Translations under genes and position numbers: made by a program
The notes under the pieces: model-generated
The model's database searches: none
What the model was told of the DNA's origin: nothing
The model's input: the letters and a program-made list of their open reading frames with translations, nothing else
From: Hadesarchaea archaeon
Lineage (GTDB): Archaea; Hadarchaeota; Hadarchaeia; Hadarchaeales; Hadarchaeaceae
Length of the DNA: 64,000 bases
Direction of reading: 5' to 3'
Assembly: GCA_029259175.1 (NCBI GenBank)
Contig: JAPDJH010000001.1
Span: 62,001 to 126,000, forward strand
Shown here: positions 39,103-56,623 of the stretch, piece by piece
Layout of the letters: each line of letters starts with the position of its first letter
Position numbering within the stretch: the stretch's first letter is position 1

Positions 39103-40494
39103 CTATCGATACCAGGGCAATCGCTTGTCCAGATAATCAGCGAGGAACTCTCTAAAGCTTCTATTCCGCATTGCTTTGGTTATTTCTCTTCCGACCAACA
39201 ATCTATACCTGCCGGCTTCGATGGATTCGGCAACGTGTTTGCCAAAACCCCGGTGTTCACTGATCACGCGCTTCAAACAACGTACTCCATCCGTCTCAAC
39301 TCTTCTGACCTCGCACACCACCCTTCCCGCTTCATCCACGTAGGGGCCGGCAAGTCTCCTGCGCGAGCCCGAATACTCCCGGAGAAAATCAGTAGCGTCC
39401 ACCGGGATCTGCGGTCCTGGGCGTATCTGAACGGGAGGGAGCCTCGAAATAGAGAGTTCTACTAACACCGCAGCGTTCCGCGAATCTGCCCATACGTCAC
39501 TTCGCAGAATCTCAAATCCCGCCTGTACCACCTCGTTGGAAATTGAACGCTCGGTTTTGCGCAACTGAGGATAAATCACGTCTTCTGGCAGATCATTATG
39601 CCGAAACCATAAACAACACAAGGTTGTCCCTCTCCGTTTGAGCTGGTTCAATAGACTGGCTTGAGTCAGAGAAGGCGGGGAATTCGGGAAGAAGAACTGC
39701 TCACGAGGCTCCTTCAAGAACTCTCTGCACGCCAGCACAAAGATGGCGAAGCTGCGCATCGAAACAGCGGCGGCCACGTTGCGCTTTGGATCCACGGGAT
39801 CCACGACCACGAGCGGCTGGCGCTCAAACAAAACGCGCGGCTCCGCTTCGCTCGGGTAAACGCGCTCGATGTCTATTACTATTCCCGGCTTCCAGCGCGC
39901 TGCGTTTTCCACAAGCTGCTGGAATGACCCGTAATGAATGACCAGCAGCTCGCTAAGATAGCCCGAAAAGCCTTGAATCCGCGCTTCAGCCCCATAAACA
40001 CCAATCCCGCGCAAAAACTGTTTGGTGAGCAACACTTGGTCTGCGAGCTGGGGTGTGAGCCGCTGCTGGACATAACGCTGGTGATGTGGTGTTCTGTCCA
40101 CGGCGCTCTTCAGTTTGCGCGGATCATCGATCCGATAACAAGGAACCAAATCAACTTGGAAGCCCTCGAATTCCATCCGCACATAGGGGTGCTCGGCATA
40201 GTGTTCTCGGCCCGAAGGCCCGGCTACCTCACGAGCGATAGCCAAACCCTGGCGCTCGAGTTCGGCACGCGGCATTTCAGGATCGAAGAGAAGAAAGATA
40301 TCGAGCTCTCGCTCTGATCGCAACCACGTTCCGCGGGCGGCAGAGCCGACAAGCATTGGCTCTGTTTTGACTTTTCGAGAGCGCGCCACCCTTCTAACTT
40401 TGTTCATGACCTGTGTCACTACTCGCTCGAGACGCTGCATATCGGAAGAGGTCGGTTTGATGCGTCTCAATACACGATTCAGCATTGCGACCAT
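39103..40494 (-). CDS. cca: archaeal CCA-adding tRNA nucleotidyltransferase
   Basis: This 463-residue class I enzyme adds or repairs the 3' CCA of tRNAs. The nucleotidyltransferase site GSAARGTWLRSERELDIFLL carries the acidic pair (ELD), with the third Asp in FQVDLVPCY. The RRLTP..QVLLTKQFLRGIGVYG helix region is typical. At least tRNA-Lys in this window lacks an encoded CCA, so the enzyme is needed. The ATG at 40494 fits the TATA box at 40515-40523 for a leaderless mRNA; a GTG four codons upstream is the alternative. Confidence 0.93.
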   Translation of the reverse strand: MVAMLNRVLRRIKPTSSDMQRLERVVTQVMNKVRRVARSRKVKTEPMLVGSAARGTWLRSERELDIFLLFDPEMPRAELERQGLAIAREVAGPSGREHYAEHPYVRMEFEGFQVDLVPCYRIDDPRKLKSAVDRTPHHQRYVQQRLTPQLADQVLLTKQFLRGIGVYGAEARIQGFSGYLSELLVIHYGSFQQLVENAARWKPGIVIDIERVYPSEAEPRVLFERQPLVVVDPVDPKRNVAAAVSMRSFAIFVLACREFLKEPREQFFFPNSPPSLTQASLLNQLKRRGTTLCCLWFRHNDLPEDVIYPQLRKTERSISNEVVQAGFEILRSDVWADSRNAAVLVELSISRLPPVQIRPGPQIPVDATDFLREYSGSRRRLAGPYVDEAGRVVCEVRRVETDGVRCLKRVISEHRGFGKHVAESIEAGRYRLLVGREITKAMRNRSFREFLADYLDKRLPWYR

Positions 40495-40514
40495 TATGCC
40501 TTCCACGGCAATAG

Positions 40515-40559: not shown

Positions 40560-41276
40560 ATGGCGATCGTGCTTAGTCTTGCATCTGTCAAAGGAGGCGT
40601 TGGGAAAACCACGATCGCAGAAAACTTGGCTATCGCGTTGGGAAGAATGGGTCGTCGCGTTTTGCTGATTGATGCTGACATCGCAACATCTGCTCTCAGC
40701 GCCCTGCTGGGTCTGACCGAACGAAATCCTAATCTGCACGACCTGCTCGCGGGCAGAGGGGATCCAAACCGGGCAATCTACGACGCCTACGGGATCCAAG
40801 TACTTCCCTCCGGAGGCACTCTCGGTGGTTTTGTGCGAGCAGATCCCGTGCGTTTGGCCCGTGTGATCGATGTGTACAAGAATAACTATGACTTTCTCAT
40901 AATCGACACGCCTCCGGGAATTACTAAATACTCGCTTGCCCCTCTCAAGATATCTGATAGTATTCTCAGCGTCACTACGCAGGATCCATCTGCAATCGAA
41001 GCCGCTGTAAAACTAGAGGAGGCATGTGCTGCAATGCAACTGAAACTCACTGGTGTTGTTGTAAACCGTGTGCGCAAACCGTCCTTCTTCAAAAAGCTCA
41101 AGTTGTACTCCCGAGCCCAGATCCAGAGCCGGCTGAGAACTCCGATACTTCTGGGGATACCAGAAGACCCCATGGTTATGGAAGCAGCCACCATGAGGAG
41201 ACCCATGCTCTTCTACAAACCTAAAAGTGCTGTTTCAAAGGCTATCTGGGAGCTGGCTCGCAAAATTGGCGGATAA
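40560..41276 (+). CDS. MinD/ParA-family ATPase
   Basis: This 238-residue deviant-Walker P-loop ATPase has KGGVGKTT at residues 11-18 with both lysines, DADIATSAL (switch I region) and IIDTPPGIT (Walker B/switch II). Unlike bacterial MinD it lacks a clear C-terminal membrane-targeting amphipathic helix; the end reads IWELARKIGG. Archaeal MinD homologues place archaella, pili or chemoreceptor arrays. It is followed 50 nt on by a KaiC-like protein and then a row of pilin-like genes, so positioning of that apparatus is the best guess. Confidence 0.85.
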   Translation: MAIVLSLASVKGGVGKTTIAENLAIALGRMGRRVLLIDADIATSALSALLGLTERNPNLHDLLAGRGDPNRAIYDAYGIQVLPSGGTLGGFVRADPVRLARVIDVYKNNYDFLIIDTPPGITKYSLAPLKISDSILSVTTQDPSAIEAAVKLEEACAAMQLKLTGVVVNRVRKPSFFKKLKLYSRAQIQSRLRTPILLGIPEDPMVMEAATMRRPMLFYKPKSAVSKAIWELARKIGG

Positions 41277-41326
41277 ATCATACGCTTGCCTTTATAGGGG
41301 AGAGAGAAAAATTCTAATCGAGCCCC

Positions 41327-42217
41327 ATGGAGATAATTCCAACAGGAATCGCTTCGCTGGACTCGCTCATCGGAGGGGGATTTCCAGCGGGTTCGCTAGT
41401 TCTGCTCCGCTCGGAGATAGGAGCAGGAAGTAAGGAATTCCTCATGAGCTCAGCCATAATGACTGAAGCCGTCAAGCGCAATCTCATAAAACCGGCGGAA
41501 ACCAATGTGAAAGTACCTAAAGACATGTGGTGGGTCACCTTCACGCGCGCGCCGGATGATATCCTGAACGAAGTTGCAATGAGTTTTGAGCGCGACTTGT
41601 TCGAGCTTTTCCGCGATGGTGTGAAATTCCGTGATTTCTCAGAAGACTATTTCAAAACATCGCCGGTGCCGATCGAATGGGTATCCGATCGGCTGAAAGA
41701 AGCCAGAGAAAAGGCCGCCCTCGAGGGTCTGTCATCTGCCTTCGCCTCCCTCTATCGTGCGACTGCTGCACCTGCAACCAGACCAAAAACTACCCTCGAG
41801 TCTCTGGCCGAGTTTCTTACAGACAATGCCACCGACAACATCGTAGTGTTCTACACTCTCAGCGACTTGGCCCGTTTGTATTCGGACTCCGAGAGCCGCT
41901 GGTACGATTTCACTCTCTTCCTCCGGGGACTCCAAAGAGCGGCGAAACGATGGGGCGGTCTAATCTATCTGCCCCTCACGGCGCGGATTCTGGATGAAAG
42001 ACAAGAAGAGGAGATTTCGGCCTGTGTCGATGGTGCCATCAACTTCCAATGGGAAGCAGCCGGACCAACGCGCAGGCGCCGCGTGATGTACTTCCAGAAG
42101 TTCCGGGGCCTGCTTCCGCGTCTCGACGGTGCAGCGGTCGTCAAATTCGAAATCACTATCACCCCAACATCCGGATTCGAAGTAGCTAGGGCGGAACTCA
42201 TCGAGGGTTTAAGATGA
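41327..42217 (+). CDS. RecA/KaiC-fold protein with degenerate P-loop
   Basis: This is a 296-residue protein. The N-terminus MEIIPTGIASLDSLIGGGFPAGSLVLLRSE follows the KaiC/RadA/ArlH layout, but the Walker A position reads EIGAGSKEF (no GKT/S). The Walker B strand IVVFYTLSDL lacks the usual Asp, so ATP hydrolysis is unlikely. It is reminiscent of archaeal HTR-like and ArlH proteins, the latter being cytoplasmic partners of the archaellum motor. It overlaps the first pilin-like gene by ATGA, which ties it to that system. Probably a structural or regulatory relative, possibly still nucleotide-binding. Confidence 0.7.
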   Translation: MEIIPTGIASLDSLIGGGFPAGSLVLLRSEIGAGSKEFLMSSAIMTEAVKRNLIKPAETNVKVPKDMWWVTFTRAPDDILNEVAMSFERDLFELFRDGVKFRDFSEDYFKTSPVPIEWVSDRLKEAREKAALEGLSSAFASLYRATAAPATRPKTTLESLAEFLTDNATDNIVVFYTLSDLARLYSDSESRWYDFTLFLRGLQRAAKRWGGLIYLPLTARILDERQEEEISACVDGAINFQWEAAGPTRRRRVMYFQKFRGLLPRLDGAAVVKFEITITPTSGFEVARAELIEGLR

Positions 42218-42687
42218 GCTCTCGCGGGATTTCTCCATTCGTAGCTACGGTACTGCTCATCTCTCTAACTATTATCGCAAGTTTGCCCGTGGTAGCATGG
42301 CTCTCTAGCTATTACGCGCCGTTTCGACCCCGATACATCGACTTGGCCGTTTATGCAGGGCTAGTGGATGAAAACATTGTGCGCCTACACATTCACCACA
42401 TAGGAGGAGACAGTGCGCGCTTCGACATAACCGAACCAACTACCAGTGTGATATATGGGTGGGCAATCTCGACTGCTACGGGGATAGAAAATCAGCTCTA
42501 CTGCTGGACGTTCGAGAATCCGTATCGGTTCCGCCAAGGGGACTGGGCATATGCCGAGGCAGCTCTCCGGGGGGCCAACTTGGAGGTAGGAGACAGTGTC
42601 CGGATCATCATCGGGCTATCAAAGGTCGGTGTAATTTTTGATGATGAAGTCACCATCAACGTGCTCACTCAAATACCGGGAGGCTAG
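42214..42687 (+). CDS. archaeal type IV pilin-like protein (Pilin_N type)
   Basis: This 157-residue protein begins MSSRGISPFVATVLLISLTI, the archaeal Pilin_N signal (RGISPxxAxxLL) and helix, distinct from the class III signals at 0.8-8.8 kb. A small extracellular domain with HIHHIGGDSARFDI follows, matching IIYHLGGDALGI in the pilin at 46332. It overlaps the KaiC-like gene by 4 nt. Probably a minor subunit. Confidence 0.82.
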   Translation: MSSRGISPFVATVLLISLTIIASLPVVAWLSSYYAPFRPRYIDLAVYAGLVDENIVRLHIHHIGGDSARFDITEPTTSVIYGWAISTATGIENQLYCWTFENPYRFRQGDWAYAEAALRGANLEVGDSVRIIIGLSKVGVIFDDEVTINVLTQIPGG

Positions 42688-42722
42688 TTTGTCCCAGCAA
42701 AAGCCAAAAAATTGCAGAAACC

Positions 42723-42730
42723 TTTATAAA
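42723..42730 (+). promoter_or_regulatory. TATA box of a pilin-like gene
   Basis: TTTATAAA lies 33-40 nt before the TTG start at 42763. GAGGTGAT (42752-42759) follows at the right place for a ribosome site. This internal promoter suggests this pilin is made in larger amounts than its neighbours. Confidence 0.65.
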
Positions 42731-42762
42731 CGGGCCTGATTAGGCATTACCGAGGTGATGAA

Positions 42763-43452
42763 TTGAAGAGGTTTATGGAAGAGAAGGGGATTTCTCCAAT
42801 CATCGCAACAATCCTATTGATTGCAGTTACAGCTGTGGCTGCTGGAGTCATTGCCGCCTACGTGTCAGGACTTTACGTCACCCCTCCATCCGTCATTGCC
42901 GGAACCGCTGACGGCTACGTGTACGACCGTGACAATAACACTGGAGAAACTAACTATCAGAACGGAAAGGTCGTAATCATCGCAACCCTGACGAGCGGGA
43001 GGCTGAGAGATGTTACTGACCCTGACCGAGGATTTAACATCACGCTCACCAACCCTGAGACTGGGTGGTCGGTAACTCTGACACAAGAGGACCTAACAAC
43101 GCCACAGTCGGACAGACCATACTATTCGGGTAAGGGAGCCACCGTAACGTTCGCAGCCACCCTCGAGGACAACAAGGATAAGCCAAACTATGGATCCATT
43201 GTGACACATGCTAGCGAAACAGCACCAGCTGTGAAAGTGATGATTCCGCTTAGCGCTGGCGACGACTGGCTAGGTGGCTCAGCAATAATTCTGATTGACA
43301 ACTTGGTTGATTCTGGTGTTGAAAATCCAGAGGATCCAGGTTCGGTCTTCTGGGACGAGGAACACACCATTTACATCGAGTTCAGCGGACGAGACTCCCT
43401 GTCCCTCACCGGATACGACGGGGCTTACCTGCTTGGACAGGCGCGACCATAA
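42763..43452 (+). CDS. archaeal type IV pilin (Pilin_N type), probable major subunit of the second system
   Basis: This is a 229-residue pilin. The TTG at 42763 follows the ribosome site GAGGTGAT; the mature-type N-terminus is EEKGISPIIATILLIAVTAV, a model Pilin_N signal. The body is a Thr/Asp-rich beta sandwich with DGYVYDRDNNTGETNY early on. It has its own TATA box and a hairpin/T-tract terminator behind it, so it is a single transcription unit, as expected for a major subunit. A downstream ATG five codons in is possible but poorer. Confidence 0.82.
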   Translation: MKRFMEEKGISPIIATILLIAVTAVAAGVIAAYVSGLYVTPPSVIAGTADGYVYDRDNNTGETNYQNGKVVIIATLTSGRLRDVTDPDRGFNITLTNPETGWSVTLTQEDLTTPQSDRPYYSGKGATVTFAATLEDNKDKPNYGSIVTHASETAPAVKVMIPLSAGDDWLGGSAIILIDNLVDSGVENPEDPGSVFWDEEHTIYIEFSGRDSLSLTGYDGAYLLGQARP

Positions 43453-43456
43453 AGCC

Positions 43457-43500
43457 GCTAGCTGTAACTAGCCTTTTTTCTGTTTTTTATTTTTTCTTTC
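43457..43500 (+). terminator. hairpin and T-tract terminator
   Basis: GCTAG, loop CTGTAA, CTAGC (43457-43472) is followed by runs TTTTTT, TTTTTT, TTTTTT to 43500. It stands directly behind the pilin gene and before the next TATA box. Confidence 0.7.
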
Positions 43501-43509
43501 ATCAACCCC

Positions 43510-43517
43510 TATAAAAG
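43510..43517 (+). promoter_or_regulatory. TATA box of the first DNRLRE adhesin
   Basis: TATAAAAG lies 26 nt before the ATG at 43536, the distance of a leaderless archaeal transcript. Confidence 0.65.
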
Positions 43518-43535
43518 CGAAAACATAGATTTGTG

Positions 43536-45200
43536 ATGGTGTTTGTGCTCTCTCGTGCCGAACGCGGTGTGAGCCCTGTCGTAGGGGCCGTCCTAGTCCT
43601 AGGCATCGTCAGCATGGCGATAGGGATATACGTTCAGCAAGTGGTTCCTGGATATCTGAAAAACAACGAGGCCTCGTTTATGCACGAAGCCCGCGATGCC
43701 TTTCTCCGTCTTCAATCCCTTATCCTGAACCACGAGAGCGGGGAAATCGAATTCCCGATGTCGGCAGATCCCGCACCTCTTTTTTCTCCCACACCACAAC
43801 CGAGCCTGATAGAGGTTCACCCTGCATGCTGGATAAAGCGAATACAGCCCACCGATGATGCTTATGTGGATGAAGGTAGCGCAAACACAAACTATGGAGG
43901 GGCTGAAATCCTCTCAGTCCGCTCCTATCAGTCTGGCAATCGATACGTGTTCTTAAAATTTGATGTGTCCAGCGCGATTCCCGATATTGATCCAAACAGT
44001 TTGGTTGAAGCTTGGCTGGTTCTTTACTGTGAAAACATCTCGAAATTCACAGGGTGGCCGTGGAACGAGCCCCCCTCCAGCTTCCCACAGTATGATGAAT
44101 TCTATCTTCCTGACCTTCCCCTAAAAGTCGAAGCATGTAAGGTCCTAGGCGACTGGGATGAATCTACTATCACGTGGAACAACAAGCCAGAGCTAGGGGA
44201 AACCATAAAAGAATCTGCATGGCCATACGCCGACAACCACACCATCAAAGACAACGAGGCTTGGTTCACGTGGGACGTGACCACCTGGGTGCGAGAACGC
44301 ATGGAAGCCGGCCAGCCGGTGAGCATATGCCTGAAACCTGCGTACGAAAACGCGACTCAGGAACGCTATGCCAATTTCTCAAGTAAAGAACGAGGAGGCC
44401 TTCCCGTAGTCGAGCCACCTGACGTGCCCGATCCCGGAGACAGCTTCAACGGCTATGAAACCGACAAAACCACTGGTCATCCGCCCTATCTCAAACCTCA
44501 CCTGACGCTCATATATGAAAACGGAGACGATCCCGGCCCTCCCGTCTCCGATGAGTGGGGACCCATCCTTGAAGATGGCTACATCCGGATAGAACTCCAC
44601 ACGTACGAGTACCCGGAGCATGACTTTGTCTTCGAATCCGGTGCCGTGCTTCAGCAACAGTGGGGACGCGCAAACACGATCATGATTTCTGATCCTGGGA
44701 TCCTCGCCGGAATGAGTCTAGAAGATAATGATGCAATCGTTGTAGTAGTCAACCGGTACCGGATTGTGAACTGGGATCGAATGGCGTCCACATCCGATGT
44801 GCGGGTGCGCGTGCGAGTGTGGGAAAACACGGATTACCGTATTGAACCGACAGATACGGATGGAGATGGAGACATCGACCCCAATCGGGAAAACCTGCTG
44901 ATAACCATTGTCACACCGTATGAATGGCCATGGAAATACTACCTGCGGGATAAAAGTTCTGAATGGAACTCCATGTACTGGAACGGTGGTCTAGCCGACT
45001 ATGTAGACTACTATTACGACACCTTGTGGACCAAGCCCAACTCGAGCCCTCCATCTGGAAACATCTGCGACTTTCAAGCAAAGCTTTACGTGGATAAAAA
45101 CACACGGCTGTACATATGGGGCCGGATCGAAGACCCGTCTGTAAAAGACATCTACTACTACGACCGCACGTTCGATGTGGAGGTGAAAATCGGTGTATAA
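43536..45200 (+). CDS. large pilin-like adhesin with DNRLRE-type domain
   Basis: This is a 554-residue protein. The N-terminus RGVSPVVGAVLVLGIVSMAI is a Pilin_N-type signal and helix. From ~105 to ~330 there is a DNRLRE/CBM96-like beta domain: IQPTDDAYVDEGSANTNYGG, RYVFLKFDVS, WDESTITWNN and TWDVTTWVRERM follow the family closely. A second beta-rich half with Asp-rich DTDGDGDIDPN (calcium-loop-like, ~450) follows. Such domains occur on archaeal and bacterial surface proteins that bind polysaccharide. It is likely a tip or shaft adhesin; the ATG at 43536 suits the TATA box, with a GTG one codon earlier. Confidence 0.78.
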   Translation: MVFVLSRAERGVSPVVGAVLVLGIVSMAIGIYVQQVVPGYLKNNEASFMHEARDAFLRLQSLILNHESGEIEFPMSADPAPLFSPTPQPSLIEVHPACWIKRIQPTDDAYVDEGSANTNYGGAEILSVRSYQSGNRYVFLKFDVSSAIPDIDPNSLVEAWLVLYCENISKFTGWPWNEPPSSFPQYDEFYLPDLPLKVEACKVLGDWDESTITWNNKPELGETIKESAWPYADNHTIKDNEAWFTWDVTTWVRERMEAGQPVSICLKPAYENATQERYANFSSKERGGLPVVEPPDVPDPGDSFNGYETDKTTGHPPYLKPHLTLIYENGDDPGPPVSDEWGPILEDGYIRIELHTYEYPEHDFVFESGAVLQQQWGRANTIMISDPGILAGMSLEDNDAIVVVVNRYRIVNWDRMASTSDVRVRVRVWENTDYRIEPTDTDGDGDIDPNRENLLITIVTPYEWPWKYYLRDKSSEWNSMYWNGGLADYVDYYYDTLWTKPNSSPPSGNICDFQAKLYVDKNTRLYIWGRIEDPSVKDIYYYDRTFDVEVKIGV

Positions 45201-46335
45201 GACCCTCATGCGTGCTGTGGGTGCTGGGCTGCTCCTCGCGCTGCTCTCCACCGGCCAAGTTGCTGCTTGGGGCCAAGCGGTTCACCACGACCAAGCCACC
45301 GATTTGGCGGAAGCCCTGCGGTCTACCCCGTCCATCCCTCAAGAAATAAGAGAGAAATTTGATACTGACACGATCTACGCTCTCTCGCTAGCCCCTGACG
45401 ACTGGAGGGATGTGACCGACACGTGGGGGACCTACCACTACAACATGACCGAAAACGCCTACTACGAGTTCCAGCGCATACGCGATGCGTGGGCTACTGG
45501 CGATTTCGACAACGCTGTTGCTCGGATTGGAATAGTGCTTCACTACGTGGGGGATGTCGTCTACGAGCCGCACAATAAGGGAATCAGAGACTGGTACGAA
45601 GAGTTCATACCCCCACTGGGGAGCGAGGCTCCTCTGTGGGGCTCAGGAGAGGGGGGTGGAATCTTCCTTCCCAACGAGATTCACCACAACGCCCACTACA
45701 ATCACCAAGTCGCTGAGGCCTACAGCGACTCGGACTCCAACTGGATACCCATCAAGCCCGAGAACTATGGACCAGACGACGATGGGAGCCTCGATTACTT
45801 CCTTAATCTGCTGTGGAAACCCAACACCTGGGACACGGACTACATCGATCCCTCAGACCCCGATTTCGGAGGGACTATTTTCGAGTGGTATATCGCAGCC
45901 TGCAACCCACACATTGATTGGTCCTCGGACGACCGGGAGGACAACCGCTGGTTCTACTGGCTAAAAACCCGCGACCCGACCATTCCGAAGCAGGACATAG
46001 ACAACACCATCCGGATTGTGTACAATGGGGTTTACCGTGCAATCCGGGATGGAGAGCGAACTAGGCTCGGCAATCCGTCTAATTTCGATACGGAAATCTG
46101 GCCATGGCCCACGGCCTCTCAATGGCTGAGCGTTGATGAGAGCTGGTATGGAGAGGGAATGGACACCATGCGGTACGCACACGGTATCTCGGGGGGAACA
46201 GAGCCGGCAACCGCTCAGAACACTCGAATGCCACTAAGTTCGCTCGCAGAATACTTGGAGATAGGAGGAGCTGTTCTTATCTCCATAGGACTTGCACTGT
46301 GGCAGGTAGAAAAACGGAAGGGGAGGAGAAAATGA
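45193..46335 (+). CDS. secreted zinc-dependent phospholipase C/S1-P1 nuclease-like enzyme, membrane-anchored
   Basis: This is a 380-residue protein. The GTG at 45193 overlaps the upstream stop region and has GGAGGTGA 6 nt before it. A signal peptide ends VAA-WGQAVHHDQA, leaving the N-terminal Trp that is a zinc ligand in this fold. HYVGDVVYEPHN (~115) is the H..D...H zinc motif, and further His-rich parts are NEIHHNAHYNH and NPHIDW. One membrane helix near the C-terminus (~355-372) and a basic tail anchor it. Substrate, lipid or nucleic acid, is undecided. Its place inside a pilin operon is unusual. Confidence 0.75.
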   Translation: MYKTLMRAVGAGLLLALLSTGQVAAWGQAVHHDQATDLAEALRSTPSIPQEIREKFDTDTIYALSLAPDDWRDVTDTWGTYHYNMTENAYYEFQRIRDAWATGDFDNAVARIGIVLHYVGDVVYEPHNKGIRDWYEEFIPPLGSEAPLWGSGEGGGIFLPNEIHHNAHYNHQVAEAYSDSDSNWIPIKPENYGPDDDGSLDYFLNLLWKPNTWDTDYIDPSDPDFGGTIFEWYIAACNPHIDWSSDDREDNRWFYWLKTRDPTIPKQDIDNTIRIVYNGVYRAIRDGERTRLGNPSNFDTEIWPWPTASQWLSVDESWYGEGMDTMRYAHGISGGTEPATAQNTRMPLSSLAEYLEIGGAVLISIGLALWQVEKRKGRRK

Positions 46336-46805
46336 AAGAAGAGAAAGGCGTCTCGGTAATAGTCGGGGAAGTGCTCCTAGTGGGGATAATAGTGGCCGTT
46401 CTTTCTCTAATGGCTATGCAAATAATCGGCTCGTCGGCTCCCCAAGCGAGAACTTTGGATTTGGAGATAATCGTGGAAAACGCAGAACCTACCCCGGCCA
46501 ACAATTTGCGAGTAATCATATACCATCTCGGAGGAGATGCTCTCGGCATACCGGAAAAAGATGGTGACGAGTTCGGGGTGATCATAGGACATTTCGGGGC
46601 CAATTCTTGGGAAAACGAAGTCGCATGGAACAGCTGGACATTCTCAGAGCCGGAGGACGGATTCGAAATAGGAGAAAACGCGGTTGGATACGTGTCGTAC
46701 GTGGGAGCGAACGCAAACATAGGGGACACGGTATGGGTGACAGTAGTAGATTACAAAGCGGATAAAATCATTTACCACGACACGACCACCATCCAATCGG
46801 GCTGA
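46332..46805 (+). CDS. archaeal type IV pilin-like protein (Pilin_N type)
   Basis: This 157-residue protein begins MKEEKGVSVIVGEVLLVGII, a Pilin_N-type signal and helix, then a small domain with IIYHLGGDALGI shared with the pilin at 42214. The ATG overlaps the phospholipase-like stop (ATGA), fixing the start; the longer frame upstream lies in that gene. Probably a minor subunit. Confidence 0.82.
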   Translation: MKEEKGVSVIVGEVLLVGIIVAVLSLMAMQIIGSSAPQARTLDLEIIVENAEPTPANNLRVIIYHLGGDALGIPEKDGDEFGVIIGHFGANSWENEVAWNSWTFSEPEDGFEIGENAVGYVSYVGANANIGDTVWVTVVDYKADKIIYHDTTTIQSG

Positions 46806-46816
46806 GGAGGGAGGAC

Positions 46817-48799
46817 ATGCGAGTTGTAGATGAAAAGGGGATCTCCTCCGTGATTGGCTTCATTATGATTGCGTCTGCTACGATGATAGCCATCTCCGTC
46901 TATATTGTACAGCAAATGCCGTATGACTGGAAGGAAGACGAATACAATGCAATGCTCGAGGTAAAAAACGCGTTTTTAAAGTTGCGCGAAGTGATCCCGC
47001 GGCTTGACCCGGGGGATGTCGCAACGGTTTCTATACCGCTCGGGGCCCTCTCTCCCCATCCGGCCGTGGCTGGCAGCAGTGGGGGAGAGATAGAAATCAA
47101 GACCGCACGAAGCCTTACTGATGTCACAGGATTCGAAACCAACGCGAACGCGTTCAGTTGGTGGAGAGCGGTGGACACTTATGTAAAGGAAGCCTCACCC
47201 ACCTTTAACTACCAAAGCCCCGACTATGAAAACGAATATCTCTATGTTTCATCCACGCAGGGAAATCGAATATGGACTTTTCTGAAATTCGATCTCGCGG
47301 ATTCGGCTCTCTACGATAGTTATGACTACGAGTTCCGAGATGATGTGGTCATCCATCAGGCCCAGCTGATGCTCTACATAATAGACGCGGATCTCACGGA
47401 AACACCCACCGATAAACTTCAAGTGCTAGTTCCACAGCAGGTGGAGGTGTGGGGACTAGAAAACGACGCTTGGTGGGAAAACATCACCTGGAACGACGCA
47501 CAGAATATCCACGATCCTACTCGGGACGTGAAAATCGAGAACATCACCATCGACAGCGATGGGGAGTGGGCGGTGTGGGATGTCACCGATTTCGTGCGTG
47601 AAAAGTTCGAGCCGTTGCTCGGATGGGGAAAGTGGTACCAGACCAAGTGGTACACCAGCACGGGCACGGCCGAGGTGGGACGATTCAGCTCGGGTTATTA
47701 TAAATACCGGTCCAAAGATTCGACAGTGAACGACGGATCCTCTCTCACGGGTTCTGGAACTCTTACTTCCTCGGTGTTCGATGCTGGAGAGATAGTGTAC
47801 TGGAACTATGCACATTTTTCCTGTGATGGAGATCCGAGCGTTACAGTGTACTTTGACAATGACCCGGATCCGATAACTGGAGGAATTTCGTTCACACTTT
47901 CCGCGGGAAGCTCTTCCGGGAATCCGAATATTTATGCGCGATACGCACAGTACCAAGTTTCGCTGGGGGGAGCGGGCGATGAAGTGTATTCGGTTACCGT
48001 GGAGTACACCGCCCACCTCTCTTTCCTGCTGCGCGAACCGTGGAAGGACGGCCAGAGCCACACCACCACGCTGCAGACCCTCGCGTGCTTCAACTCGGGA
48101 GACAACTCCCGCGCCGAAGCGTATGGCTTTGAACCCAAGCTACGCATTGTCTACTCCCGAACATCGCGCGTGGGCTATGCAAAACAGGGATTGTTGGAAT
48201 TCGGATACGTCAAACTAAAAGGAAACACCGAATACTTCCCTGAAACCAACTACTGCTACGAAGGAGGGGCTGTATTCGTTGAAAGGGGGACCGGATGGTA
48301 TCAAACACTGATTGCCTATCCGCCCGACTTGGTTACCCTCGTGCCGACTGAGGAGAAGATCGTGGAACCGGATGGAAGTGTCAAGCGAGTGGCCATTCTC
48401 TCCGTCACGCGCTACCAAATCATGGAATCTTCTATCGAAGGGGAAAGTGTTGAAGCTTCCGGCGCCACAGCTCTGCGGGCGTCTCCTCAGAGCATCGAGT
48501 GGTTGGTGGAACCACCGGACGAGCCGAACACGGACGAAGTCACCATCACCATCATCACCGAGCATCCAAGCATATGGCGCGATGTGATGGAACAAATTGC
48601 TGCAGAGGTGAACTACGTTCTCTCTGGATACGAATCATACTACACCTATGAGGACTACACATCATATGATTACAGCACCATCAGCCTCACCATCCGCGGG
48701 GATCCCGGCGAAGGAGGAACAAAGTGGACGTTCAAATACTCTGAGAAAGTGGTGTGGCTCAAGGTATCCGCTGGAACGTATTTGGGAGGCAGAACATAG
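46817..48799 (+). CDS. large pilin-like adhesin with DNRLRE-type domain, second copy
   Basis: This is a 660-residue protein. Pilin_N-type start EKGISSVIGFIMIASATMIA, followed by VYIVQQMPYDWKEDEYNAML, mirrors the start of the adhesin at 43536 (IYVQQVVPGYLKNNEASFMH), so the two are paralogues. A DNRLRE-like domain spans ~115-265 (TFLKFDLAD, WWENITWNDAQN, AVWDVTDFVREKF). A second beta domain spans ~280-400 and a long C-terminal beta region is Tyr-rich. GGAGGGAGG lies just before the ATG. Confidence 0.78.
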   Translation: MRVVDEKGISSVIGFIMIASATMIAISVYIVQQMPYDWKEDEYNAMLEVKNAFLKLREVIPRLDPGDVATVSIPLGALSPHPAVAGSSGGEIEIKTARSLTDVTGFETNANAFSWWRAVDTYVKEASPTFNYQSPDYENEYLYVSSTQGNRIWTFLKFDLADSALYDSYDYEFRDDVVIHQAQLMLYIIDADLTETPTDKLQVLVPQQVEVWGLENDAWWENITWNDAQNIHDPTRDVKIENITIDSDGEWAVWDVTDFVREKFEPLLGWGKWYQTKWYTSTGTAEVGRFSSGYYKYRSKDSTVNDGSSLTGSGTLTSSVFDAGEIVYWNYAHFSCDGDPSVTVYFDNDPDPITGGISFTLSAGSSSGNPNIYARYAQYQVSLGGAGDEVYSVTVEYTAHLSFLLREPWKDGQSHTTTLQTLACFNSGDNSRAEAYGFEPKLRIVYSRTSRVGYAKQGLLEFGYVKLKGNTEYFPETNYCYEGGAVFVERGTGWYQTLIAYPPDLVTLVPTEEKIVEPDGSVKRVAILSVTRYQIMESSIEGESVEASGATALRASPQSIEWLVEPPDEPNTDEVTITIITEHPSIWRDVMEQIAAEVNYVLSGYESYYTYEDYTSYDYSTISLTIRGDPGEGGTKWTFKYSEKVVWLKVSAGTYLGGRT

Positions 48800-48814
48800 A
48801 CGAATGGGAATCGG

Positions 48815-49117
48815 ATGAGCCAGCGCCAGGTTCTGAAAATTCTCAGAGAATTCGCGGCCCGAGAAAGACGAGAGAAAGGAGGAGAGGTGCGAATCTACCA
48901 GTTAAAACTCGCAACCGTGCTCAGGAGGGGGCCAATACCGGAGATGAGAATTCGAAGCAGAGGTGGGGCGTGCTATCTGGTAGAACTCCGCCAATCGAAA
49001 CAAACGAGGATATACTTCTTTGACGGAAATGGCCAAATGCTGGGAGCTGAAAACTACGGGCCCGAGGATCCCGAGCTGCAGCGCTTGTTAGACCACTATC
49101 GGCGGCTCCCGGGCTAG
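48815..49117 (+). CDS. small basic protein of unknown function
   Basis: This is a 100-residue Arg-rich protein. The first half is a helix with many charges (LREFAARERREKGGEVRI), the second a few strands (RIYFFDGNGQMLGAENYGPE) ending in a helix with Leu repeats. No family is recognised and no membrane segment seen. It follows the second adhesin by 15 nt and may be the last gene of that operon. Its 3' end overlaps a convergent zinc-ribbon frame. Confidence 0.5.
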   Translation: MSQRQVLKILREFAARERREKGGEVRIYQLKLATVLRRGPIPEMRIRSRGGACYLVELRQSKQTRIYFFDGNGQMLGAENYGPEDPELQRLLDHYRRLPG

Positions 49118-49301: not shown

Positions 49302-49967
49302 TCAGACCTCGATGAGTTCTACACGCACCCGCTCATCAGGCGGGATCTCGATCTCTGCTGCGTAGCCCTTCGAAATCGGCCCTGGGTTGACCATTACCGT
49401 ACGGCCCAGCTTCTCCACGGCTCTGGCTTCGTGGACGTGGCCGCAAGCCAGCGCCAAGGGCTGTTTGTCCTCCACAAATTTCCTGAGGCTTTTGCTTCCC
49501 ACGTGAGCGCCCGATTCGAGCTCATCGAGTTTGGTGTTGTGCGGGGGGGCGTGGGTGACCAACACCCACCTGTAGTTGTCCTCGCACTGCAGTGCTGCAA
49601 GCTCCTCTAGGATCTCGGCTTCGGTGAGTTCGAATGGTGTCTTGAAGGGGGTGATGTTGGAACCGCCCAAGCCCATGAAGCTGACATCACCCACCTTGCG
49701 GCATTTCCCGTGCAGGTTGACCTCGTAGCGATCGAGCACCTGTAGGATATCTTTGGGGTCACAGTTGCCCGGCACGGAGAGAGCTGGCACACCGCTCTCA
49801 CGAACCAGATCGAGCAGACTCTCGGCCACGTCGATGGGCCCGAAGTTGGTCAGATCGCCTATGAGGAGAACACAGTCATAATCCCGCTCGAGGAGTTTTC
49901 TGAGATTGTGCTCCGCGGCAGACACACCGTGAAAGTCTGCAGTCACCAGAATCTTCAACTTGCCCAC
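49302..49967 (-). CDS. calcineurin-like metallophosphoesterase (YfcE/MJ0936-like)
   Basis: This is a 221-residue two-metal phosphoesterase. All motifs are present in order: DFHG (residue ~11), GDLTNFG (~37), GNCDP (~67), THAPPHNT (~138), GHVHEARA (~176). The compact size and one-domain layout fit the YfcE/MJ0936 group of phosphodiesterases, whose natural substrates are not settled. A TTTTTAAC box 30 nt before the ATG marks its promoter. Confidence 0.9.
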   Translation of the reverse strand: MGKLKILVTADFHGVSAAEHNLRKLLERDYDCVLLIGDLTNFGPIDVAESLLDLVRESGVPALSVPGNCDPKDILQVLDRYEVNLHGKCRKVGDVSFMGLGGSNITPFKTPFELTEAEILEELAALQCEDNYRWVLVTHAPPHNTKLDELESGAHVGSKSLRKFVEDKQPLALACGHVHEARAVEKLGRTVMVNPGPISKGYAAEIEIPPDERVRVELIEV

Positions 49968-50031
49968 CGAACCACCATCTGCGGCGGTGTTAAAAACCTT
50001 TGGCGGCTCTCCGGCGCCCGGCGTTAAGTTT

Positions 50032-50874
50032 TTAACCCCCTCGTTCGCGTGCTCGCTCCGACGCTCGCTCGATCGCGCGGTCCAGCCGACTGGAGAGAGA
50101 AGCCCTTCCGCTGATCTTCAGCCGCAGTAGCTTTCGGGCGAGCTCACGAATGGCACGGCTCGCGGCGCTGTTGGGATATGCGGCCACCACCGGGAGATTT
50201 TCGCGGAAGGCCTCGTCCACCGCTTTGTCGAACGGCACGACTCCCAAAACGCGTGCGATTCGAGAGGCCTTCTCGCTCCACTGTTCCCGGCGCGTGCCGC
50301 GCATCAGCTTGGAGAGGACGACTCCGAGCGGTTTCACGCCCATCAATTCTTCGAGTCCCCGGGCAGTCGCTAGAGTGGAGTTGATGGAGTCGTCGTTCGC
50401 CTCGCACACGTAGAGCACGCGGTCAGCCGCCGCCGTGAGAATGAGGTGCTCGTACGAGACGGATGCGGGCGTATCGATGAACACGAAGGAGAACTCGGAT
50501 CGGAGGTCCTCTATCATGCGCTCGAAAATCTTACGCACTCGTTCCATTCGGGATGATACATCTCCGTGTAAAGGAAAGAAGCGCCCACCGGCTGGCATCA
50601 CCGCGAGGTTCGGGTAAAGGAGCGAGCCGTCGGACGCCAGCTGGCAGGTGTAAACCGCGTCCCTCCAGTTCCGCTTGCCCGAGAGCACGTCGGCTAGCGA
50701 GGCCTCGCGGGCAGGACACAGCTTCAGCTCTACAGAGCGCACGTGCAAATCCCCGTCGATGAGGAGAACACGGTCGCGCGGTTTGAGCTGGGCCACCCAG
50801 ATGGCCAAACCCATGGCCACCGTGGTCTTGGACACTCCTCCTTTGGTCCCGACTACGGCTATGACCGCACCCAT
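50032..50874 (-). CDS. MinD/ParA-family ATPase with unusual P-loop
   Basis: This 280-residue P-loop ATPase has the deviant Walker A KGGVSKTT (residues 11-18), where the usual Gly before the catalytic Lys is Ser. DGDLHVRSVELKL and FIDTPASVSYEHL supply switch I and Walker B. The C-terminus is an Arg/Ser-rich helix (SSRLDRAIERASERARERGG) that might bind membrane or nucleic acid. It follows an ArsR-type regulator by 6 nt on the same strand. Cargo unknown; differs from the MinD at 40560. Confidence 0.82.
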   Translation of the reverse strand: MGAVIAVVGTKGGVSKTTVAMGLAIWVAQLKPRDRVLLIDGDLHVRSVELKLCPAREASLADVLSGKRNWRDAVYTCQLASDGSLLYPNLAVMPAGGRFFPLHGDVSSRMERVRKIFERMIEDLRSEFSFVFIDTPASVSYEHLILTAAADRVLYVCEANDDSINSTLATARGLEELMGVKPLGVVLSKLMRGTRREQWSEKASRIARVLGVVPFDKAVDEAFRENLPVVAAYPNSAASRAIRELARKLLRLKISGRASLSSRLDRAIERASERARERGG

Positions 50875-50880
50875 GGAAAC

Positions 50881-51240
50881 TCACACTGCCAAGTCGGGTC
50901 TCCTGTAAATTTGAACCCGGATGTCTGCGCGCCGGCTCACAAGCACCTTGCGAACGCCCCCCTCTTTCACGTCCTTCCGGTACACGAGGCCTGCGCGCTC
51001 CAGAATCCGGAGGTGGTGGAGCACGCGGCTCACATCCATGCGCTTGCCCGTGCTTCGCTCCAGAGATCGAACGAGCTCGGACTGGAAGAGGGGGCCATCG
51101 TCTAGCAACTCGTACATCTGCCGGCGAAGGGGGTGCTGAAGAGCTCGAAAGATCGCGTATGGCTCGGAGACCTCTTTCCAGCCATCATCGCGCTTGAGTG
51201 CGAGCACCGGCTTTCCCGTTTTCTCGATGCGTCCGCCCAT
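50881..51240 (-). CDS. ArsR-type winged-helix regulator
   Basis: This is a ~119-residue protein. The winged helix spans ~25-95: YAIFRALQHPLRRQMYELLD, then RMDVSRVLHHLRILERAGLV as recognition helix, and a basic wing (KDVKEGGVRKVLVSRRADIR). No metal-binding Cys motif is visible. The ATG at 51240 has GGTGA 5 nt upstream; a GTG three codons earlier is less likely. It leads the two-gene unit with a MinD-like ATPase and lies behind a highly structured leader. Confidence 0.8.
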   Translation of the reverse strand: MGGRIEKTGKPVLALKRDDGWKEVSEPYAIFRALQHPLRRQMYELLDDGPLFQSELVRSLERSTGKRMDVSRVLHHLRILERAGLVYRKDVKEGGVRKVLVSRRADIRVQIYRRPDLAV

Positions 51241-51297
51241 CCTGGTCACCGAAACCTAACACGGCTTCACCCGAAGACATGGCAGGTCGGTTTCCAA

Positions 51298-51487
51298 GCT
51301 CCGCGGGGAGCGGAGCCCCCGGATACCAGGGATCTCCGGGTAGCCTCCGTCGCGCGCGACCTCATCGTGCACCAGACCGCTGGCCTGGTGCAGGGCGGTA
51401 AGCCCGCTTCCCGTGCTTAGCCCACGCCTCGGACTTCCACCGCCTTCATCCGGCGCGACACCGCGCGGGATCTCATCCGGAGATGAG
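51298..51487 (-). ncRNA. candidate structured RNA or long structured leader
   Basis: The 434-nt gap between the ArsR gene and nadX holds seven hairpins in a row. Plus coordinates: 51298-51316 (GCTCCGC/GCGGAGC), 51318-51340 (CCCGGA/TCCGGG), 51349-51360 (GTCGCGCGCGAC), 51368-51392 (TGCACCAG/CTGGTGCA), 51394-51444 (GGCGGT/ACCGCC outer stem with an inner stem), 51453-51466 (GCGCG/CGCGC), 51472-51487 (CTCATC/GATGAG). A TTAAAT box at 51500-51495 suits minus-strand transcription toward the ArsR gene. Both strands fold, so strand is uncertain. I could not match RNase P or SRP RNA. The rest of the gap (51490-51674) has the nadX promoter (TTTTTATA, 51617-51624). Confidence 0.5.
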
Positions 51488-51674
51488 CGCAGGGATTTAA
51501 GTCGCTTTGGGGGAGAGGTGCCCGAAAATAACCTTTCGGTGCGGTCAGGATTTATGAGGTTATATTGGGTTATCGGCAACTATCACTCACCTCCCCCTCT
51601 CCTTGGGCTCTCAGGGTTTTTATACCGGGTGGACGGGCGAAAAACAAAATTAGGCTTTCACAGAGAGTGTTAGG

Positions 51675-52490
51675 ATGCTCGGCGTGGGGCTAATCGGGTG
51701 CGGATCCATAGGCACGGCTTTGGCGAGAGCCATAGACCGCGGAAGGGCTGGAAACACCAGGTTAATGGTGGTGTATGACCTCAACCCCCAAGCGGCTAAA
51801 AAACTGGTGGCTGGTCTCAAGCAGAGGCCCAGAATCGCTCGAAGGGCAGATGAGGTCTATCGCGATCGCCGTGTGAGGCTCGTGATAGAAGCCGCATCGC
51901 AGAAGGCGGTGAGGGAATTCGGGGAGCGCATCTTGCGGGCGCGAAAGGACCTGATCGTGCTCAGCGTTGGGGCCCTTGCGGACGGCTCGCTGAGAAAAAG
52001 GTTGGAGAAGACGGCTTTGAAAAACGGTTGCAAGATATACATTCCGTCTGGAGCCGTTGTCGGTATCGATGGTGTCCGGGCAGCCAGCATAGATCAAGTA
52101 AGCAGGGTGGTGCTCACGACGCGAAAACCGCCAAGGGCCCTCGCCAGAAATCCGCTGGTGGGGAAGGAAATTGTGAAGCTGAAGCGGCCGAAAGTGGTCT
52201 TCGAGGGACCCGCCCGGAAGGCTGTTCGAGCATTTCCGGCGAGTGTGAACGTTGCAGCGACTCTTAGCCTCGCGGGGGTTGGCTTCGACAAAACTTGGGT
52301 CAGGATAGTGGCGGATCCGAGTTTGAAGCGCAACGTGCACGAGATCCGGATCGAGGGGCGGGCCGGGCGAATCCTCACGCGAACCGAAAACCTCCCGATG
52401 CGCGAAGCACCGGGCACCAGCAAGCTCGCCGCCCTGTCCACCATCCGGCTGCTGCGCAATCTCACAGAACCAACATACATAGGGGCGTGA
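51675..52490 (+). CDS. nadX: L-aspartate dehydrogenase
   Basis: This 271-residue enzyme oxidises aspartate to iminoaspartate for NAD synthesis. The Rossmann start GLIGCGSIGTALARAID is at residues 5-21; IPSGAVVGIDG and SVNVAATLSLAGVGFDKT are family signatures of the catalytic half. It is followed 6 nt later by nadC, which confirms the pathway. A quinolinate synthase (nadA) is not in the window. Aspartate dehydrogenase, rather than the oxidase NadB, is usual in anaerobic archaea. Confidence 0.93.
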   Translation: MLGVGLIGCGSIGTALARAIDRGRAGNTRLMVVYDLNPQAAKKLVAGLKQRPRIARRADEVYRDRRVRLVIEAASQKAVREFGERILRARKDLIVLSVGALADGSLRKRLEKTALKNGCKIYIPSGAVVGIDGVRAASIDQVSRVVLTTRKPPRALARNPLVGKEIVKLKRPKVVFEGPARKAVRAFPASVNVAATLSLAGVGFDKTWVRIVADPSLKRNVHEIRIEGRAGRILTRTENLPMREAPGTSKLAALSTIRLLRNLTEPTYIGA

Positions 52491-52496
52491 TCCGGA

Positions 52497-53357
52497 ATGA
52501 ACACCCGAGAGCTGCTGCTGGAGATGATTCGCGACGACTTGGGCAGGGGAGACATCACCACCGAGGCGGTTATCGGTTCAGACGTGCGGGCTAGAGGATT
52601 CATTGTGGCGCGCGAAAGGGGGATGCTAGCAGGGGTCCGAGAAGCGTGCTCCGTCTTCAGGCTGGCGGGGGTGAGGACACGAGTTCTGAAAAAGGACGGA
52701 TCGGCAGTGAGGGCTGGGGACAAGATAATGGAAGTGAAAGGCAATGCGCGGAAAATCCTGCAGGTGGAACGTGTTGCGCTGAACCTGCTGATGCGGATGA
52801 GCGGGATAGCAACGGCAACGGCCGAGCTGGTGAGGCTGGCTAAACGTGCAAATCCTAGGGTTGTGGTGGCCGCAACGCGCAAAACCGCCCCCTTGCTCAC
52901 GCGTTTCGACAAGCGGGCTGTGGAAGTGGGAGGGGGGAGCCCGCACAGGCGGGACCTGAGCGAGCAGGTTCTGATAAAGCGGAACCACGTGCGGATAGTC
53001 GGGTCGATCGAGAGTGCGGTTCGATCGGCCAAAAAGGCGAAGCGTCGACCCATAGAGATCGAGGTTTCGACCGCTGAGGAGGCGCTGAGGGCCGCGCGTG
53101 CGGGCGTCGACATCATAATGCTGGACAACATGCGGGTCAGCGAAGTCAGGCGTGCAGTCGAACTCTTGAAGCAGGAGGGGCTCAGGGAAAAAGTAGTGCT
53201 AGAGGTCTCCGGCGGAATAAGACCGAACAACATCCAGCGATATGCGGCGACTGGAGTCGACGTGATATCCAGCGGCTACATGACCATGCGGGCTCCGGCT
53301 CTGGATATGGGGCTGGAGATAGTGGCTGCCTCGCGCTCTACAAATCTGTCGAAATGA
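52497..53357 (+). CDS. nadC: quinolinate phosphoribosyltransferase (carboxylating)
   Basis: This 286-residue enzyme makes nicotinate mononucleotide from quinolinate and PRPP. It shows DLGRGDITTEAVI (~15), NLLMRMSGIATATAEL, VVAATRKTAPLLTRFDK (~130), GGGSPHRRDLSEQVLIKRNH and DIIMLDNMR, all expected for type II PRTases; TRKTAP replaces the more common TRKTTPGLR wording. One operon with nadX. Its end adjoins a TATA box and candidate RNA. Confidence 0.95.
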   Translation: MNTRELLLEMIRDDLGRGDITTEAVIGSDVRARGFIVARERGMLAGVREACSVFRLAGVRTRVLKKDGSAVRAGDKIMEVKGNARKILQVERVALNLLMRMSGIATATAELVRLAKRANPRVVVAATRKTAPLLTRFDKRAVEVGGGSPHRRDLSEQVLIKRNHVRIVGSIESAVRSAKKAKRRPIEIEVSTAEEALRAARAGVDIIMLDNMRVSEVRRAVELLKQEGLREKVVLEVSGGIRPNNIQRYAATGVDVISSGYMTMRAPALDMGLEIVAASRSTNLSK

Positions 53358-53378
53358 TCGCAAAAACGATGGGGCACA

Positions 53379-53386
53379 TTTATATG
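53379..53386 (+). promoter_or_regulatory. TATA box of a candidate small RNA
   Basis: TTTATATG is a strong archaeal TATA sequence. Counting ~25 nt from its centre gives a start near 53407, exactly at the foot of the first hairpin of the candidate RNA. Confidence 0.6.
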
Positions 53387-53406
53387 CCTCCCTTTGCGAT
53401 TCTTAA

Positions 53407-53480
53407 TTGGCGATCGGCACCCGGTCGCCTCGGTCCCCGCCCCCTCTTTGTGGGGACCGGTCCCCCTCCCCTTTCCCAAT
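53407..53480 (+). ncRNA. candidate small RNA with two tandem hairpins
   Basis: Hairpin 1 (53409-53429) has a 9-bp stem, GGCGATCGG/CCGGTCGCC with one G-U pair and a CAC loop. Hairpin 2 (53431-53459) has an 8-bp stem, CGGTCCCC/GGGGACCG with a 13-nt pyrimidine-rich loop. They are one base apart and followed by a C/T-rich tract (53461-53477). The TATA box at 53379 predicts a 5' end at the base of hairpin 1. No open frame is present. It could be a free small RNA or the 5' leader of the DUF763 gene. Confidence 0.5.
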
Positions 53481-53563
53481 ACTTTCAGTGGGTTCTCCGG
53501 AAAGGAACTAGTATAGCGAAAATCATATTCTAAATCGGTGAAGGAGCGGAACCGGTGGAAGGG

Positions 53564-54673
53564 ATGAGGAGAACGGGAATCGCGGAGCTCCCGCTACACG
53601 GCGGAAAGTGCCCGCCCTGGCTTTTCAGGCGCATGAAGCAGCTGGGCGAGGCGATATGCCGGCTCGTGGTGGAGGAATACGGGAGAAAGGAGCTGCTGAG
53701 GCGTCTGGCCGATCCGTTCTTCTTTCAGTCGCTGGGCTGCGTGCTGGGATACGACTGGCACTCCAGTGGTCTGACCACCGTTACGGTCGGGGCGCTGAAG
53801 GAGGGCATTGACGCACGGGAGCTGGGGATCGCGGTCTGTGGAGGGAAGGGAAAAACGTCGCGGCGAACGCCGGAGGAAATCCAGAGGCTGGCCGACGCGT
53901 TCTCCTTTTCGGATTCCAAGGTGGAGGAACTCCAGCGGGCGAGCAGGCTGGTCGCGAAGGTGGACAACGCGTGCGTGCAGGACGGATACCAGCTGTACCA
54001 CCATGCGTTCATCGTTTCCGAAGACGGAGACTGGACAGTGATCCAGCAAGGGATGCACGATCGCTTCGCCAGGCGCTATCACTGGTTTTCGGGGAACGTG
54101 CGCAGCTTCGTCGACGAGCCGCACACGGGAATCGCAGGGGATCGGCGGGAGAGCGCGGTTCTCGACATGACGGCGCGCGAGAGCGAGGAGTGCAGACGGG
54201 CGAGTGTCGATCTCGTGCGCGAGAATCCCAAGAGGCTGCTGCCCTATCTGCGGAAAACCGAGCAGCGCACGCTGGAGGACTACTTTGCGCGCTCTCCGCA
54301 GGCGAAGGTGTTGGTTATGCCAGCACGGCACACGATCTCGGAGCTCACGGAGCGGACCCTGGCGGCATTGCAGCGAGCGTACGAGATCCAGCCCCAGGAC
54401 TACGAGGACCTGATTTCCATCCGTGGGATCGGGCCAAAGGCCATCCGCGCCCTCGCTCTGGTTTCGGATCTGGTCTACGGCAAGCCCCCCTCGTGGCGCG
54501 ACCCGGTGAAGTACTCGTTCGCCCACGGGGGGAAGGACGGGGTTCCGTACCCAGTGGACCGCCGGACGTATCAGACGACCATCCAGATTCTGGAGGACGC
54601 AATTCAGGAAATGCAGACGACTCGGGAGGAGAAGATTCGCGCGCTCCGAAGGCTTCACGAGTTCTTGGGATGA
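53564..54673 (+). CDS. DUF763 family protein
   Basis: This 369-residue protein begins RRTGIAELPLHGGKCPPWLF and has DPFFFQSLGCVLGYDWHSSG (~50) and GGKGKTSRRTPEEIQRLA, the hallmark segments of DUF763, a family found in archaea and some bacteria. A helix-hairpin-helix motif (LISIRGIGPKAIRALALV, ~290) suggests nucleic-acid binding. The biochemical role is not known to me. The ATG at 53564 gives the family start; a GTG three codons upstream is possible. Confidence 0.85.
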   Translation: MRRTGIAELPLHGGKCPPWLFRRMKQLGEAICRLVVEEYGRKELLRRLADPFFFQSLGCVLGYDWHSSGLTTVTVGALKEGIDARELGIAVCGGKGKTSRRTPEEIQRLADAFSFSDSKVEELQRASRLVAKVDNACVQDGYQLYHHAFIVSEDGDWTVIQQGMHDRFARRYHWFSGNVRSFVDEPHTGIAGDRRESAVLDMTARESEECRRASVDLVRENPKRLLPYLRKTEQRTLEDYFARSPQAKVLVMPARHTISELTERTLAALQRAYEIQPQDYEDLISIRGIGPKAIRALALVSDLVYGKPPSWRDPVKYSFAHGGKDGVPYPVDRRTYQTTIQILEDAIQEMQTTREEKIRALRRLHEFLG

Positions 54674-54724
54674 GCGCGCCTCCGAGAGCGTTATAGGGAA
54701 GGAGCCCCCCATTCTCTTGGAAGG

Positions 54725-56557: not shown

Positions 56558-56623
56558 GCGCGCAGGCGGAGAGTAATGCTTCCAAAAATTATTTTATCGT
56601 GAGGTTCCCTAGAGGAGAATGGG

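Follow-up and report, generated by a model that had tools for sequence, protein, structure and literature searches.

A MinD and inactive KaiC-like gene pair in a probable split type IV adhesion pilus locus of an uncultured Hadesarchaea archaeon

The question raised by a run of nine genes in the genome of an uncultured archaeon, Hadesarchaea archaeon (assembly GCA_029259175.1, contig JAPDJH010000001.1), is which surface apparatus they specify and which motor would build it. The run occupies positions 40560–49117 of the 64,000 nt stretch of DNA analysed here (hereafter, the window), lies entirely on the + strand and has an operon-like spacing, with short gaps or overlaps between genes. It encodes a MinD-type ATPase, a KaiC-fold protein, three small type IV pilins, two large pilin-headed adhesins, a phospholipase-C (PLC)-like enzyme and a 100 aa open reading frame (ORF). 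An earlier note, made from the sequence alone, had listed all but the last of these and had read them as a type IV filament locus that includes a MinD and a KaiC-fold protein; domain searches confirmed the genes, their strand and their families, and supported that reading. We conclude that the locus probably supplies the filament, the adhesins and the accessory proteins of a type IV adhesion pilus of archaeal type, the motor of which (a PilB3-like ATPase with a PilC3/TadC-like platform) is encoded elsewhere in the same genome. This genome, designated G000, comprises 1.31 Mb in 23 contigs and is 91 % complete; other genomes are likewise referred to by number.

Linkage and co-occurrence of the MinD–KaiC-like pair with a PilB3-like motor

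The first two genes of the run form a pair that recurs across relatives. The MinD/FleN-type ATPase (40560–41276, + strand) scored 191.5 bits with TIGR01969 (minD_arch), slightly under the cut-off of 201.75, and has an intact deviant Walker A motif, KGGVGKT; such a motif was present in all eight MinD orthologues checked, taking the form KGGVGKS in G008. The KaiC-like gene (41327–42217, + strand) follows after 50 nt, and the two genes were adjacent in 10 of 10 testable genomes, with the MinD orthologue adjoining the KaiC-like gene in G002, G010, G007, G003, G008, G023 (two loci), G024, G025 and G026. In G012 the contig ends at the KaiC-like gene. Of the expectation that the gene set would be conserved together, therefore, the part concerning the pair stood and that concerning the full set did not, as the order through the pilins and adhesin was kept only in G010 (MinD, KaiC-like, pilin C, pilin D, adhesin E, pilin G and further adhesins). 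Some genes in high-GC contigs (G024, G026 and G047) had been misassigned by the gene caller and were checked separately by search matches.

In relatives, the pair is repeatedly found next to a secretion motor. A T2SSE-type ATPase adjoins it in G008, G023 (both loci), G025, G024 and G026, a T2SSF platform follows the ATPase at all of the pair-linked loci but that of G026, whose contig ends in the ATPase, and in G007 motor, pilins and adhesins all lie within ∼10 kb of the pair. The window's own genome carries its motor on contig C3, unlinked to the locus (G000:C3:92007–95784). The ATPase (92007–93911) is 57–69 % identical to those by the pair in G007, G008 and G023a, and it matched T2SSE (125 bits) and PilB3_C (33.4 bits, cut-off 27), with PilB3_N (24.8 bits) just under its cut-off of 27; the platform (G000:C3:93952–95784) matched T2SSF over two stretches (95 bits) and is of the single-chain, PilC3/TadC-like kind. 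The view that the locus has no ATPase or platform of its own is to be corrected in that the genome contains a dedicated partner motor, outside the window. Furthermore, the earlier note had suspected an undescribed apparatus, unless a nearby dedicated secretion ATPase marked the locus as that of an ordinary pilus; since a dedicated PilB3-like ATPase stands beside or near the pair in G007, G008 and G023–G026, we favour the latter description.

The distribution of these genes across the 27 genomes of the order gave the same picture. A PilB3-like ATPase, a class that we defined by at least 51 % identity and that is separated by a clear gap from the next class (≤ 42 %), was found in 9 of the 11 genomes with the KaiC-like gene and in none of the 16 without it (Fisher P = 1.2 × 10−5), and the platform followed the pattern of the ATPase. 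In G001, the nearest genome (same genus, 95 % complete), the KaiC-like gene, the MinD orthologue, the ATPase and the platform are all absent together. Moreover, pairwise distances of KaiC, MinD, ATPase and platform correlate (Pearson 0.78–0.93), values to which shared ancestry alone contributes.

Several points weigh against this partnership. Two genomes with the KaiC-like gene, G002 (90 % complete) and G012 (76 %), had no detected PilB3-like ATPase, which may reflect assembly gaps or the use of another motor. As the motor is unlinked in the window's genome, the partnership rests on the relatives, and as the genomes are few and related, the P-value overstates their independence. A truncated MinD match (65 % identity over 48 residues) lies at a contig edge in G004, so that the absence of KaiC there may itself be a gap; recounted on this basis the figures become 9 of 12 and 0 of 15, and overall the co-occurrence counts could shift by one or two. 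Lastly, CBM96 adhesins occur in 15 of the 27 genomes, both with and without the MinD–KaiC-like module, and were thus rejected as a specific mark of it.

The KaiC-fold protein and alternative readings of the locus

Domain searches recognized KaiC/ArlH-like similarity over only the first 30–50 residues of the KaiC-like protein. Its RecA fold was identified by structure: an AlphaFold2 model (alignment of 13 relatives; pLDDT 83, pTM 0.80) retrieved KaiC (E-value 2 × 10−13) and FlaH/ArlH (4yds; E-value 9 × 10−13) in Foldseek, with target TM-scores of ∼0.75 to the KaiC C1 domain and FlaH. The suspicion that its P-loop does not work was borne out by alignment, which showed the Walker A Lys (SEIGAGSKEF) and the Walker B Asp (VVFYTLSDL) to be both gone. 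In the main clade (G000, G002, G010, G007, G003, G012, G008 and G023a, in this order) the Lys column reads S, H, H, N, N, Y, N and P and the Asp column Y, Y, Y, H, H, H, H and S, and none of the sequences in the 13-sequence alignment departs from the two glycines and the EF of GxGxxEF. As the loss extends across the orthologues, it is an old, maintained trait rather than a sequencing error or the mark of a dying gene; judged by these residues, the protein is incapable of normal ATP use. That archaea have KaiC homologues that are inactivated was reportedly proposed by Makarova, Galperin and Koonin in mBio in 2017, a study cited in PMC13286277.

Other members of the family differ at these positions. 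The Lys is retained in the f3 b KaiC-like paralogues; the paralogues beside the motor in G023, G024, G025 and G026 read GESGAGKSEF or GESGGGKSEF. In more distant archaea KaiC-like proteins without the Lys have mostly kept the Asp. A radical SAM gene (L039:13405–14733) accompanies a P-loop-intact paralogue of family f3, with similar ORFs at the same place in loci L041 and L042. In G023:C2, G025:C17 and G024:C12 (L045–L047), genes of a third KaiC clade, whose P-loop is altered (for example to GPPGTRKEDF), have neither MinD nor a motor beside them. With regard to ArlH, the proposed likeness survived in part: the model resembles ArlH and KaiC, but the curated ArlH model was not matched (26.1 bits, cut-off 215), and with the Walker A Lys also lost we rejected the protein as an ArlH. 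A true ArlH (262 bits) is found in G025, at a separate place from the KaiC-like family member there, and no ArlH over the curated cut-off was found in the window's own genome.

Elsewhere in archaea, members of the same inactive KaiC subfamily are encoded next to a small KaiC that has an intact P-loop, GxxGxGK[ST] (12 loci checked), which suggests that the inactive protein is regularly coupled in function to a live partner that provides the nucleotide switch. Such inactive/live tandems (L093–L104 and L044) occur in several other archaeal families, often with an overlap of a few bases. They usually have no pilus motor genes within ∼10 kb, and this favours an account in which MinD and the KaiC-like protein have a general role in signalling or positioning, like archaeal KaiC hubs, mainly regulate other processes and have the pilin genes as mere neighbours. 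A gene for a FIST-domain sensor, a possible signal input, lies directly beside the pair in G007 (L035:8215–9441) and would fit such a role, as would the effects of Haloferax MinD2 and MinD4 on archaella and chemosensory arrays (PMC11588486). However, six or more genomes of the order have a pilus ATPase close to the pair, the pair co-occurs with that ATPase, and in the more distant G324, too, an inactive/live KaiC tandem adjoins a PilB3-like ATPase and platform. On balance, we consider it unlikely that the pair serves mainly elsewhere.

A second alternative keeps the pilus and changes its motor. The window holds a separate Tad-type pilus system on the − strand (7316–13449), composed of a prepilin peptidase, a class III signal pilin, two T2SSF proteins and a TadA-like ATPase, and the earlier note had the locus borrow the TadA/B/C-like machine at 9.5–13.2 kb. 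Were the locus pilins built by this ATPase and the two T2SSF proteins, they would be served by the nearest secretion ATPase, ∼27 kb off and in the company of an A24 prepilin peptidase and a class III signal pilin; moreover, in G002, a genome that has the KaiC–MinD pair, no other clear pilus ATPase was found. Its distribution nevertheless does not track the module, as the TadA-like ATPase is present in 4 of the 11 genomes with the KaiC-like gene and in 11 of the 16 without (P = 0.13), whereas the unlinked C3 PilB3-like ATPase and platform do co-occur with it. Nor does the TadA-like machine adjoin the pair at any relative locus examined, and it brings pilins of its own in a conserved order, the system recurring with the same gene order and its own pilins in G002 (L058). 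We therefore rejected it as partner motor, and consider that borrowing is improbable. From this system, the A24 prepilin peptidase (7316–8059, − strand; Peptidase_A24 57.6 bits, Arc_PepC 38.8 bits) supplies the prepilin peptidase expected of an archaeal type IV pilus, and is a candidate processor of the locus pilins too.

A degenerate archaellum is hardly credible, for although the C3 ATPase also resembles FlaI/ArlI and the KaiC-fold protein is structurally like ArlH, the former reached 390 bits against a FlaI cut-off of 550 and matched PilB3_C instead, so that neither ArlH nor ArlI was found over curated cut-offs. Taken together, the linkage and co-occurrence of the pair with the PilB3-like motor, and the mismatch in the distribution of the Tad-type system, point to an archaeal type IV pilus whose genes are split between loci and include those for a motor of its own.

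Pilins, adhesins and the PLC-like enzyme

Five proteins of the locus carry a class III-type prepilin site, [KR]G/[IV]S, with a hydrophobic helix, and all three small pilins matched Pilin_N or TIGR02537 over cut-off. The first (42214–42687, + strand), which overlaps the KaiC-like gene by 4 nt, has an RG/ISP cleavage site and matched TIGR02537 over cut-off; a 45 % identical orthologue occupies the same place in G010, and related pilins are found close to the module in G003 and, in G007, next to the motor. After 75 nt it is followed by the second (42763–43452, + strand), with a KG/ISP site and matches to Pilin_N (32.5 bits, over cut-off) and TIGR02537 (40.6 bits). The third (46299–46805, + strand), with a KG/VS site and a Pilin_N match of 32 bits, overlaps the end of the PLC-like gene, its true start probably being the ATG inside the overlap, and has an orthologue at the same place in G010. 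The large pilin-headed adhesins are found after the second and third pilins, at distances of 80 and 11 nt, respectively. That at 43533–45200 (+ strand) contains CBM96/DNRLRE (CBM96 85 bits) and DUF7289 (31.6 bits) regions and has relatives near the module or motor in G010, G007, G008, G003 and G023; that at 46817–48799 (+ strand) matched DNRLRE over cut-off (40 bits) and CBM96 just under it (24.8 bits).

The gene for the PLC-like enzyme (45193–46335, + strand) overlaps the first adhesin by 8 nt and encodes a secreted, C-terminally anchored protein of the zinc phospholipase-C/P1 type. Its match to Pfam Zn_dep_PLPC was weak and below cut-off (E-value 0.0036), and its homology was recognized by comparing a family profile with phospholipases C in the PDB (E-values 1.9 × 10−5 to 1.2 × 10−4). 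The structural model was weak (pLDDT 55), and its best Foldseek matches were all phospholipase C, at E-values above 0.03. When the protein was compared with the nine zinc ligands of the family, a pattern of Trp, His, Asp, HYxxD, His and HxxxE was present by eye, its columns aligning incompletely across relatives, and the Trp is probably the mature N-terminus. In G010, a PLC-like domain and an adhesin share one open frame of 974 aa. A signal peptide and Trp come first, followed by the PLC-like domain, into which an F5/8-type domain is inserted; a hydrophobic/basic tail then leads to a pilin head and CBM96. This in-frame fusion supports the earlier suggestion of an enzyme-bearing appendage, in that enzyme and adhesin are physically tied. 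PLC-like genes also stand beside large adhesin-like ORFs next to the PilB3-like motor of G010 (L055), in G007 (L107) and on contig C11 of the window's own genome, where a second PLC-like gene is next to a 1196 aa adhesin-like ORF (L056:9304–13850). As other copies stand alone or in other loci, the enzyme is best seen as recurrent cargo; it was rejected as a core part because it lies near the module only in G000 and G010.

The run ends with the 100 aa ORF (48815–49117, + strand), 15 nt beyond the second adhesin and possibly co-transcribed, for which family searches gave no match and no counterpart was found at the relatives' loci. Both flanking genes are on the opposite strand and encode a CCA-adding enzyme (39103–40506) and a metallophosphatase (49302–49967). 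Just past the locus lies a second, divergent MinD/ParA-like ATPase (50032–51249, − strand), which scored 104 bits with minD_arch and has an ArsR-type HTH gene immediately upstream of it, and GC content is ∼0.60 at 50001–58000 against ∼0.52 in most of the window.

Proposed mechanism, known systems and significance

In the split pilus that we propose, the pilins and pilin-headed adhesins would be cleaved by a prepilin peptidase and polymerized by the C3 PilB3-like motor into an adhesion pilus, in which the two large CBM96/DNRLRE proteins would act as minor, tip or side adhesins. The KaiC-fold protein would most likely dock on the motor ATPase as a non-catalytic, ArlH-like ring or adaptor, ArlH being a KaiC-fold protein that, without hydrolysing ATP itself, binds to ArlI, the motor ATPase (PMC8978795). 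MinD might be the nucleotide switch that sets where or when the motor assembles, by analogy with archaeal MinD proteins, which are implicated in the positioning of surface machines (PMC11588486). The PLC-like protein, with its signal peptide and C-terminal anchor, would be an enzyme cargo carried beside an adhesin, or joined to one as in G010. We further put forward, as a tentative possibility, that pilus motors are regulated by MinD and the ATP-dead KaiC acting together as a unit. The KaiC ring would then be a scaffold only, the nucleotide switch having passed to a partner protein, which would be MinD in this phylum and a live KaiC in several other lineages of archaea; the pilus, in turn, would bear a surface phospholipase- or nuclease-like enzyme acting on whatever it binds.

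Much of this arrangement has a counterpart in the euryarchaeal clade-2 pili (PilB3/PilC3), which likewise combine a PilB3-like ATPase, a TadC-like platform, type IV pilins, large minor pilins or adhesins and MinD/FleN and KaiC-family ATPases, with a motor that is often encoded apart from the pilins (Makarova et al., 2016; PMC4858521). In that work, the MinD/FleN and KaiC-family ATPases were predicted to be regulators of the pili, and a FlaH-like role was suggested for MinD. What differs here is that MinD is stably paired with one KaiC-like protein dead at its ATP site and that an anchored PLC-like enzyme joins the adhesins. The KaiC-like protein shares with ArlH (FlaH) the KaiC/RecA fold, an expected lack of ATP hydrolysis and a tie to a secretion ATPase of the PilB/ArlI class, but differs in profile score, in the lost Lys and in having a MinD partner, and both families coexist in G025. 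Like other archaeal KaiC-like ATPases it is a single-domain homologue, of which some members are predicted to be inactive; its partner, however, is MinD and not a live KaiC. Haloferax MinD4 and MinD2 belong to the same archaeal MinD family, and no paired KaiC-like gene is reported for them in the portion of the source available (PMC11588486). The enzyme appears to share with the zinc phospholipase C/S1–P1 nuclease superfamily the Trp after the signal peptide, the HYxxD and His/Glu ligand pattern and a helical fold, and is set apart by its C-terminal membrane anchor, low similarity and association or fusion with a pilin-headed adhesin.

Links of MinD and KaiC to pili are already published (PMC4858521); what is unusual is the pairing of MinD with an inactive KaiC and the anchored enzyme fused to an adhesin in G010. 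In the open-access literature that was searched, we found no prior description of a fixed MinD and inactive-KaiC pair with PilB3-type motors, nor of a PLC–adhesin fusion. How archaea control the place and time of pilus assembly is poorly known, and the stable pair offers a small, testable unit that would join MinD positioning to a motor regulator of the ArlH type. The adhesin-linked enzyme, in turn, suggests that some archaeal pili may bear hydrolytic activity besides adhesion.

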